Positions 13,628 through 16,782 of a stretch of 64,000 nt of DNA are shown one piece after another; position 1 is the first letter of the stretch; every line of letters starts with the position of its first letter. The position numbers were made by a program, and so were the translations under genes. The notes beneath the pieces are model-generated. The model worked only from the letters and a program-made list of their open reading frames with translations. It ran no database searches and was not told the DNA's origin. The stretch comes from an uncultured Alphaproteobacteria bacterium (GTDB lineage Bacteria > Pseudomonadota > Alphaproteobacteria > Rhodospirillales > Rhodospirillaceae), in the NCBI GenBank assembly GCA_902575965.1, contig CACGTM010000002.1:62001-126000 (forward strand). Direction: 5' to 3'.

Positions 13628-14665
13628 TTATATTTGTTTATTATTTTTTATTTTGTCTAACGGCCACCTTGGCTTAGGCTTGAATGACAGAGGGTCACTC
13701 AATCCAAGTCTATACCTTTCCAACCCAGCCCAAGCGACCATAATCCCGTTATCAGTACATAACTCAACTGGCGGTACATAAAAATCCATTTTCTTTGATA
13801 AAATAATTTTATTAAGACTAGATCTTAATAATTCATTAGAAGCAACTCCGCCCGATAAAACTAAAGACTTGATCGACTGTGATTCGTTAGAGACCAGAAA
13901 ATTTTTGGTTCTTTCTATCAGGTGGTTGATTATAGCCTCTTGAGTTGAAGCTGCTAAATCTTTTAAATCTTGCTCAGATGCACCTTTTTCCTGAATATAA
14001 TTAATCGTGTTTTTTACTTCTGTTTTCAGACCAGAAAATGAAAAATCACATCCTCCCCTTTTTTTTAGTGGCTTAGGAAAAGAAAACCTTTGAGAATCTC
14101 CAAGTTTCGCAAATTCCTGAATAGAGGGCCCACCAGGCATTTCCAAATTCAACATTTGAGCAACTTTATCAAAACATTCCCCTGCCGCGTCATCAAGTGA
14201 ATTACCTATACACTTGTACTTGCCAACCCCTTCGACAATAAGTAATTGGCAATGTCCACCAGAAACTAAGAGCAACAAGAAAGGGAATTCTATGGTGTTT
14301 GTAAATCTGACTGTTAATGCGTGGGCTTCTAGATGATTAACCGCTATAAAAGGCTTACTAAACATTGAGGCAAGCGTTTTAGCTGTCATTACCCCCACAA
14401 TCAAGCCTCCAATAAGGCCCGGGCCTGCAGTTGCGGCAAATACATCAATCTGCTTCAAATCAACATTTGCTTCATCTAATGACTGTAATATAAGTCTATC
14501 GATATGCTCTAAATGTGCCCTTGCTGCAATTTCAGGAACTATACCACCATAGGGTTGGTGTGCTTCAAACTGGGAGATCAGTTTATGTGATAAAACATTT
14601 CTATTGTCATCTACAATAGCAACAGCTGACTCATCACAACTAGTTTCTATCCCTAATGCTAACAT
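13628..14665 (-). CDS. tsaD: tRNA N6-adenosine threonylcarbamoyltransferase
   Basis: Transfers the threonylcarbamoyl group to A37 of ANN-decoding tRNAs, together with TsaB (encoded at 16867-17526) and TsaE. GIETSCDESAVAI is the ASKHA nucleotide-binding start. HLEAHAL near residue 108 holds the two metal-binding histidines, and GPGLIGGL and LVLSGGVASNELLR are further family motifs. Length 345 is standard. It is divergent from the Mic60-like gene, with a 98-base gap. Confidence 0.95.
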   Translation of the reverse strand: MLALGIETSCDESAVAIVDDNRNVLSHKLISQFEAHQPYGGIVPEIAARAHLEHIDRLILQSLDEANVDLKQIDVFAATAGPGLIGGLIVGVMTAKTLASMFSKPFIAVNHLEAHALTVRFTNTIEFPFLLLLVSGGHCQLLIVEGVGKYKCIGNSLDDAAGECFDKVAQMLNLEMPGGPSIQEFAKLGDSQRFSFPKPLKKRGGCDFSFSGLKTEVKNTINYIQEKGASEQDLKDLAASTQEAIINHLIERTKNFLVSNESQSIKSLVLSGGVASNELLRSSLNKIILSKKMDFYVPPVELCTDNGIMVAWAGLERYRLGLSDPLSFKPKPRWPLDKIKNNKQI

Positions 14666-14763: not shown

Positions 14764-15768
14764 ATGTTAAAGCAAAAAAAATTTCTAATAATTATATTAA
14801 TGCCAATTCTTTTAGTAATTATTTGGTTTACAAACCCTCTCTCATTAAAAGATCGCTCCATTAAATTAATACAAGAATTAAATATCATTTCAGCTGTAAA
14901 TAATACATTGATAGAAGAGGATAAAAGTACATTTGATGACAAACCATCAAAGATCAAATCCCACAATTCCGTAATTAAGGAAGAATCAACTGAAAAAAAG
15001 GGAGGTAATTACCAAAATAAAAATACTTATATCGAAAAACTTGAACCCCAAAAAAAAGATTTTTCAATACATGTGGAAAAAAAGGGAAACAATAATATAG
15101 CTCAAGACGTCTCCTCCGTTTCAGACGTAAAGTCAAATAATAAAATCTATGACGTTGAGTCGCCATCTCTTAAGGGAGAACGGTTCATAGAAAAAGACAC
15201 TTTAACTCAAAGTAATATGATAAAAGTGATTCAAGAAAAGAGCTTATATATCTCTATTTTATTATGCATTGTTGAAATAGAAAAATCTTTGGTGCTTGGT
15301 CATCCATATGTTGGTCAAATAGATTTATTACGGGAACTTCTAAAAGAATCAGATGGTCTTAACATTAATTTAGCTCCACTAATAAAAGGTGCAAAAAATG
15401 GGATGCCCTCAAGAATTAATCTATATAATGAATTTCAGTTAATAAGATTAAAAACTTTATCTCTTCCAACTGAAGAGGTAAAAAATATGAATTTTCTTGA
15501 TCGAGCCTATAGTAAAATATCATCTTTAATATTAGTAACAAAGAATCCTGACAATAAGGAAAATAAATTAAGAGCTATATTAAATGAAATAGAAGAAGCA
15601 GTTACCGCCTTTAATATTAATAATATCCTTAATCAATACAACAAACTCAGCAATATCAATAAAGAAATTATGAATGACTGGATAGAAAAGATAAAAATGT
15701 TACAGGACGCACAATTAATATTATTAGATATGAAAAAGAGCACTATTAAAAATTTAGCTGCTAATTAG
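14764..15768 (+). CDS. Mic60/mitofilin-like inner-membrane protein (COG4223 type), shortened
   Basis: Inner-membrane protein whose periplasmic part probably shapes the membrane, as proposed for alphaproteobacterial Mic60. One N-terminal transmembrane helix spans about residues 8-24. A low-complexity Lys/Glu/Asn/Ser-rich linker follows to about 150. The last 170 residues read like the mitofilin signature domain: a GHPY...LRELL helix, then LAPLIKGAKNGMPSRINLYNEF, then ISSLILVTK and a terminal helix pair with DWIEKIKMLQDAQLILLDM. The family usually has a longer coiled-coil middle, which is not obvious here; 334 residues is short. Its place next to tsaD and before a HemY-like gene is the standard neighbourhood, but hemC and hemD are missing from it. 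The identification rests on pattern and synteny. Confidence 0.7.
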   Translation: MLKQKKFLIIILMPILLVIIWFTNPLSLKDRSIKLIQELNIISAVNNTLIEEDKSTFDDKPSKIKSHNSVIKEESTEKKGGNYQNKNTYIEKLEPQKKDFSIHVEKKGNNNIAQDVSSVSDVKSNNKIYDVESPSLKGERFIEKDTLTQSNMIKVIQEKSLYISILLCIVEIEKSLVLGHPYVGQIDLLRELLKESDGLNINLAPLIKGAKNGMPSRINLYNEFQLIRLKTLSLPTEEVKNMNFLDRAYSKISSLILVTKNPDNKENKLRAILNEIEEAVTAFNINNILNQYNKLSNINKEIMNDWIEKIKMLQDAQLILLDMKKSTIKNLAAN

Positions 15769-15781
15769 GACAATACTTTCA

Positions 15782-16192
15782 ATGATAAAAAAAACTCTTC
15801 TTATTATTTTAATGGCAATTATTACAACAATACTATTCATCTTATTCACAGATATAAATAATAATTTAATTTTAAACTGGGGCGATTGGGAGGTATTAAC
15901 ATCCTTAACTGCTTTAGTATTAATATTCCTGACTTATACACTTTTATTAGTTCTTCTTATATATTTATACTCATCCCTAATCAGGGTTAAAGAAAAGCGT
16001 ATATTATCAAAAAAAATAAAAAATTTGAGTAATAGTATTGATATTTTAAATGATTTATCATTCGATATTTCAAAAAATCAATTAGATAAATCAGATGAAA
16101 AAATTAGGAAATTAAGAACTCACCTTGGAAACAGAGAAATTGTAAGTCTGATAGAAGAGATTGTAGATTACCGAAAGTCTGAAGCGGAATGA
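15782..16192 (+). CDS. HemY-like N-terminal domain membrane protein, much shortened
   Basis: Small protein of 136 residues with two hydrophobic segments, about residues 4-24 and 38-63. Between and after them the order matches the HemY_N domain: a short LNWGDWEV strand, a long second helix, a basic KEKRILSKKIK patch and a final helical region. Full HemY proteins continue with several hundred residues of TPR helices, absent here. The next gene on the other strand overlaps its end by 25 bases. It lies 13 bases after the Mic60-like gene, as HemY does in Alphaproteobacteria. Either a functional mini-HemY or a decayed remnant; sequence similarity is modest. Confidence 0.55.
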   Translation: MIKKTLLIILMAIITTILFILFTDINNNLILNWGDWEVLTSLTALVLIFLTYTLLLVLLIYLYSSLIRVKEKRILSKKIKNLSNSIDILNDLSFDISKNQLDKSDEKIRKLRTHLGNREIVSLIEEIVDYRKSEAE

Positions 16193-16782
16193 TTATCTCT
16201 TAGTTTTTCTGCACAAAGAATATCCTCTTCACACATCATTGGTTTTTTGAGATCTTTATTGCTAAGCAAACCATAATTGTCTCTAGCATTAAATAGTTGA
16301 TAGTGCCACCACTCGTTTTTATAAAAATCCCATCCCGCTAAAGTCATAATACCTAAAAGCAATAACCTGTTACTTTGCGCTAGGCTGCTTATTTCATAGC
16401 TCCCATGATGAGACTTTTGGGTAAAAGAGTCAAAGTCCGTACCCATATCCACTTCATTTCCATCTTTACCAATCAACGTTAAGTCAATTGCTACTCCGCG
16501 TGAATGTGGAGACCCCTTCCTCGGGTCAGTTAAAAAATCCGGATTGGGATCTTCCTCCCACAATAACCATTGGGCTTCTGAAGGCCTGAATGCATCAAAT
16601 ATTTTTATTTTATAACCAAGCTTATTCGCAATATTTTTTGCTTTATCAAATTTTTCTTTTGCATCAATGTGAAGAAAACATAAACCTTTTGAATAAATTT
16701 TTTTTCCAGTAAAGTTTCTCTTCGAGGCATAGACGATATCTAACTCGACACCGGACTCTTCAGATGTTATTTCTACAAGCAT
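16168..16782 (-). CDS. ddpX: D-alanyl-D-alanine dipeptidase (VanX/DdpX family, peptidase M15D)
   Basis: Zinc dipeptidase expected to hydrolyse D-Ala-D-Ala in the cytoplasm. SPHSRGVAIDLTL supplies the HxxxxxxD zinc ligands, and NEWWHYQLF supplies the catalytic glutamate and third zinc histidine. The KIFDAFRP and SHHGSYEISS segments also fit VanX/DdpX. There is no signal peptide and the 204 residues match the family. No resistance ligase or VanH-like gene is near, so recycling or catabolism of peptidoglycan dipeptide is more likely than glycopeptide resistance. The 3' end overlaps the HemY-like gene by 25 bases. Confidence 0.88.
   Translation of the reverse strand: MLVEITSEESGVELDIVYASKRNFTGKKIYSKGLCFLHIDAKEKFDKAKNIANKLGYKIKIFDAFRPSEAQWLLWEEDPNPDFLTDPRKGSPHSRGVAIDLTLIGKDGNEVDMGTDFDSFTQKSHHGSYEISSLAQSNRLLLLGIMTLAGWDFYKNEWWHYQLFNARDNYGLLSNKDLKKPMMCEEDILCAEKLRDNHSASDFR

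Follow-up and report, generated by a model that had tools for sequence, protein, structure and literature searches.

The 64,000-nucleotide stretch of alphaproteobacterial DNA analysed here (the window) carries a Mic60-like protein directly followed by a HemY protein cut to its N-terminal, two-transmembrane domain (HemY_N). We consider it probable that in this genus an inner-membrane and periplasmic Mic60-HemY_N core outlived its cytoplasmic parts and acts as bacterial Mic60 does. The basis of this reading is orthology by synteny, domain content, the nested and derived position of the genus, purifying selection and the recurrence of short HemY proteins. The window (G000:C2) belongs to a MAG of 1.37 Mb that is 58% complete. 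The nearest genome, that of the congener G001, is 81% complete, and the evidence within the window genus comes from these two species.

The mitochondrial crista organiser descends from bacterial Mic60. We know of no explanation for the position of Mic60 in a heme operon together with HemY. Among the papers searched, none paired Mic60 with HemY or HemD; an earlier description of the fusion or of the truncated HemY described below is possible. Alphaproteobacterial Mic60 deforms membranes, and its loss lowers growth where intracytoplasmic membranes are required (reviewed in PMC12136173).

Gene order around tsaD

The locus contains the following features, given by window position:

13628-14665, minus strand: tsaD, the divergent flanking anchor (84% identity to the congener and 57% to the sister genera, in the same place)
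14764-15768, plus strand: Mic60-like protein of 334 aa, unfused and without a HemD domain (window-excluded profile, family-profile PDB match, synteny)
14785-14841, plus strand: single transmembrane helix of the Mic60-like protein, residues 8-26 (hydropathy; AlphaFold helix 2-23)
14929-15201, plus strand: low-confidence and presumably disordered linker, residues ~56-146 (pLDDT <50 for residues 51-146; 31% identity)
15208-15765, plus strand: all-helical C-terminal mitofilin domain, residues 149-334 (profile match 154-333; pLDDT mostly >90)
15782-16192, plus strand: HemY N-terminal domain only, 136 aa, without a TPR tail (PF07219, alignment, profiles)
15863-15904, plus strand: predicted periplasmic beta hairpin between the HemY transmembrane helices, residues 28-41 (AlphaFold strands 28-33 and 36-41; invariant columns)
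16168-16782, minus strand: convergent flanking gene, which by homology we take to be D-Ala-D-Ala-dipeptidase-like (a neighbour kept in 20+ relatives)

The gene order gpsA-epimerase-tsaD, two intervening genes, dipeptidase-tsaB-rimI-fur is common to the window, the congener and the sister genera. In the sister genera the first intervening gene encodes HEM4 and mitofilin domains and the second HemY_N and TPRs. The first-pass annotation had described two open reading frames of 334 and 136 residues divergent from tsaD and held that they were retained as a pair; both are present, and the congener has the same gene pair in the same slot and order, with 333 and 136 aa. Identity between the two species was 47% for the Mic60-like protein, 76% for HemY, 84% for tsaD and 66-91% for the neighbours. 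This synteny ruled out a chance arrangement of the pair. The HemY stop codon (16192) lies within the 3' end of the dipeptidase-like gene, and the same 136 aa are found in the second species, which excludes a frameshift hiding a longer HemY. An Rfam scan of the window gave no matches.

Identification of the Mic60-like protein

Residues 154-333 of the 334-aa protein matched a mitofilin profile built, with the window excluded, on the C-terminal parts of eight syntenic relatives, at an E-value of 3.4e-12 (profile positions 38-218 of 231), and the 333-aa protein of the congener matched the same profile at 7e-11. The profile of the family alignment (A3, the window plus 22 relatives) had PDB entry 7pv1, a MIC60 fused to MIC19, as its sole significant match (E 7.4e-9), a match that the relatives may drive. 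Scanned directly against Pfam and NCBIfam, the window protein had no Mitofilin (PF09731) match, nor did the congener protein against Pfam, so that the Mic60 identity rests on the profiles of relatives. Among the four fusion proteins of relatives that were tested against PF09731, three scored above the curated cut-off and the fourth (L085) reached an E-value of 1e-4. On these comparisons the 334-aa protein was confirmed as a divergent Mic60, as its mitofilin-like C-terminus had suggested in the first-pass annotation.

Kyte-Doolittle analysis showed one strong transmembrane segment (residues 8-26). The AlphaFold model consisted of the transmembrane helix, a helix at residues 26-55, a low-confidence stretch at 51-146 and a confident helical domain at 149-333. 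Identity to the congener followed these regions, with 64% in the N-terminal transmembrane region, 31% in residues 26-148 and 55% in residues 149-334. The protein shares with other alphaproteobacterial Mic60 (PF09731) the N-terminal transmembrane helix, the C-terminal mitofilin domain and the position adjoining HemY and divergent from tsaD. It differs in that it is undetected by Pfam alone and in that the model shows no long coiled coil between the transmembrane helix and the mitofilin domain, the low-confidence linker apparently taking its place. Foldseek searches with the model gave no match in the PDB at E <= 0.001 and nothing significant in BFVD; the sole solved MIC60 found was a short MIC60-MIC19 chimera, and this chimeric structure together with the partly disordered model is perhaps the cause of the blank.

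HemY is cut to its N-terminal domain

Sequence and profile comparisons likewise confirmed the earlier suggestion that the 136-aa protein corresponds to the N-terminal, two-transmembrane domain of HemY. Its direct match to PF07219 (HemY_N), with an E-value of 2.5e-4, fell short of the curated cut-off. Residues 1-126 matched a HemY profile from which the window had been left out (E 2e-5, Z=1000), and an iterated profile that included the window scored the protein at 85 bits. Kyte-Doolittle analysis showed two strong transmembrane segments (residues 5-23 and 42-60), and AlphaFold modelled a transmembrane helix, a beta hairpin, a second transmembrane segment continuing into a long helix, and a helical hairpin. 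A Foldseek search of the PDB with this model found nothing significant. The order of these elements, the position directly after Mic60 and residues W33, T40 and S41, which do not vary across the family, are shared with HemY/HemY_N (PF07219; TIGR00540). The alignment with 416-aa relatives stops just past HemY_N, where the TPR array of the relatives begins; this C-terminal array is absent from the window protein, which has 136 aa against 412-462 aa in the sister genera.

Both membrane proteins had been proposed to be pared down. This applies to HemY, which lost its TPR tail, but not to Mic60: the Mic60 slot of small alphaproteobacterial genomes often holds an unfused protein of 262-350 aa, and a Mic60 of 334 aa is therefore not remarkably short.

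Origin of the reduced pair

In the sister genera, the slot between tsaD and the dipeptidase gene is occupied by a HemD::Mic60 fusion followed by a TPR-bearing HemY. The fusions (for example L128, L149, L144 and L154) sit in the same slot and have an orthologous mitofilin domain; unlike the window protein, they measure 636-1481 aa and carry an N-terminal uroporphyrinogen-III synthase domain. Fusions of 1155-1481 aa were seen in close relatives (L095, L096, L097, L099, L100, L113, L124, L130, L131 and others), and in these long forms several hundred residues separate HemD from the single transmembrane helix.

In a tree of TsaD, the window pair grouped with four fusion-bearing relatives with full-length HemY (support 100/98). 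A first tree, in which other AT-rich lineages were drawn to the window pair on long branches, was rebuilt excluding them. Because the pair nests with these relatives, the reduced state is a derived one: the window genus, placed within the fusion clade, has since shed the HemD half and HemY's TPR tail. Of the ~30 loci arranged in this way, those of the window genus alone are without both; in a few others (L140, L142, L160) the HemD part lies on a separate or broken frame.

The ancestral order assumed in the first-pass annotation, tsaD divergent from hemC-hemD-Mic60-HemY, is borne out more widely, since 38 of 61 related genomes have hemC no more than ~3 kb from HemY, but the immediate ancestor had the fusion and HemY. 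In the window's own clade, hemC is found on a different contig or at a distance of hundreds of kb from the slot. Neither hemC nor hemD adjoins the pair, as had been noted; however, since the immediate ancestor had HemD::Mic60 with hemC already elsewhere, what was lost at this step was the HemD half of the fusion.

Short HemY proteins in other lineages

In the surveys of the order and the class, HemY nearly always had ~350-650 aa; short exceptions were counted away from contig ends. In f51 (G085, a single contig of 1.41 Mb that is 99% complete, and G275), HemY has 143 aa, and tsaD is followed divergently by a 263/265-aa protein and HemY_N, with no adjacent hemC or hemD. In f94, HemY is short (129 aa in G128, at most 221 aa in G226) and hemC-hemD-Mic60 are retained. 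A short HemY of 262 aa was also present in f154 (G225). Short HemY thus recurs independently, in at least two unrelated lineages (f51 and f94) besides the window genus. As f94 retains hemC-hemD, loss of the HemY tail does not strictly go together with hem-gene loss.

The f51 pair (L200, L201) belongs to a lineage unrelated to the window genus and resembles the window pair in layout, in a HemY cut to HemY_N and in the absence of adjacent hemC and hemD. Its 263-aa protein would be Mic60 by position and architecture, with weak support from sequence: hhalign gave E-values of 0.012-0.033 (Prob 1.5-3.5), hmmsearch scored it at 7.5 bits, where shuffled sequences reached at most 4.1, and the protein joined only in an iterated search limited to HemY-upstream proteins, in which coiled-coil drift is possible.

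The Mic60-slot proteins of f94 (L202, 7794-9302; L203, 6447-7766), which adjoin hemC-hemD and the short HemY, have a Cro/YdaS-like helix-turn-helix at the N-terminus, which presumably faces the cytoplasm, with matches below the Pfam cut-offs (PF14549, E 1.7e-4 in L203; PF15943, E 0.0027 in L202).

Heme-synthesis genes

None of hemB, hemC, hemD and hemE was recovered from either G000 or G001; G001 retains the ferrochelatase gene hemH (L193, contig 73) and COX1. Given the completeness of 58% and 81%, any one independent gene would be missed in both genomes ~8% of the time. Loss of hemB, hemC, hemD and hemE from the window genus is likely, with MAG incompleteness weakening the absences.

The genomes of g2 and g5 encode the enzymes at another site, as hemC-hemD-hemB. 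A second, divergent hemC-hemD-hemB set was found at L195, L196 and L197 (G002, G005, G024), and the HemD domain persists at the tsaD locus in spite of it; in g2 and g5 the fused HemD is possibly redundant. At L195, in G002, the set adjoins what we take, from reading the sequences, to be ALAS and sulfate-assimilation/siroheme genes. The 99% complete G002 gave no URO-D (hemE) match, though hemB, hemC, hemD and ferrochelatase are present.

Selection and alternative explanations

Genome streamlining could have left the pair as a degenerating remnant with little function, nearing loss in a small AT-rich genome. The divergence of Mic60 (47% identity to the congener against 84% for tsaD) fits this, as do the 46 of 241 class genomes without a HemY_N match at E <= 0.001. 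However, the frames, lengths and order were kept in two species whose synonymous divergence exceeds one (dS >1), and the identical short HemY is fixed in both. Nei-Gojobori dN/dS values against the congener were ~0.33 for Mic60 and ~0.11 for HemY, the latter resembling tsaB; both genes are therefore maintained by purifying selection rather than being debris. A pseudogene reading was ruled out by these values and the conserved lengths, and we regard degeneration towards loss as unlikely.

A continued part in tetrapyrrole metabolism, with the core handling a porphyrin intermediate or heme and the enzymes located elsewhere or replaced by uptake, would accord with the ferrochelatase and COX1 of the congener, though hemB-E were not found there, and with the family names, under which HemY was historically annotated as heme-associated. 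Against it, the parts that were lost, the HemD domain and the TPR tail, are those most likely to touch the enzymes, and such a role seems to us rather improbable. That an unrelated single-transmembrane protein took over the Mic60 slot would agree with the missing Pfam Mitofilin match in window and congener and with the blank Foldseek search, but hardly with a window-excluded profile match covering most of the mitofilin domain, the perfect synteny and the same placement of the transmembrane helix; we consider a replacement very improbable.

A proposed membrane core without its cytoplasmic parts

We favor the survival of a Mic60-HemY_N core, in which the pair is the ortholog of the HemD::Mic60 fusion and full-length HemY of the sister genera with two modules removed: HemD, which precedes the transmembrane helix of Mic60, and the TPR array, which follows the second transmembrane helix of HemY. 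A positive-inside reading, with charges assessed by eye, would give the Mic60 N-terminus and the HemY C-terminus a cytoplasmic location and put the mitofilin domain and the HemY hairpin in the periplasm. On this charge-based topology both lost modules would be cytoplasmic and the kept ones, the transmembrane helix and mitofilin domain of Mic60 and TM1, beta hairpin, TM2 and helical stalk of HemY, membranous or periplasmic. The kept core may, like other bacterial Mic60, curve the membrane or take part in envelope contact; HemY_N would be the partner physically paired with Mic60. The lost parts may have been cytoplasmic adaptors that once coupled the complex to tetrapyrrole enzymes since moved or lost in the lineage. 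Membrane shaping, already proposed in the first-pass annotation as the retained role, is plausible for the pair on grounds of homology.

A broader version of this reading is tentative, and we hold it to be possible rather than probable: that a minimal Mic60-HemY_N module, separable from heme synthesis, arose at least twice (in the window genus and f51), with HemY_N alone a third time (in f94), which would show that the core of HemY is a two-transmembrane partner of Mic60 and that HemD and the TPRs are detachable cytoplasmic adaptors.

Lineages that shed all cytoplasmic heme-linked and TPR parts yet keep the pair are natural deletion experiments, from which HemY_N emerges as the domain that probably partners Mic60. 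At 334 and 136 aa, the two proteins are small candidates for reconstitution. Together, the data suggest that in this marine alphaproteobacterial genus the membrane-embedded core serves a function in its own right.
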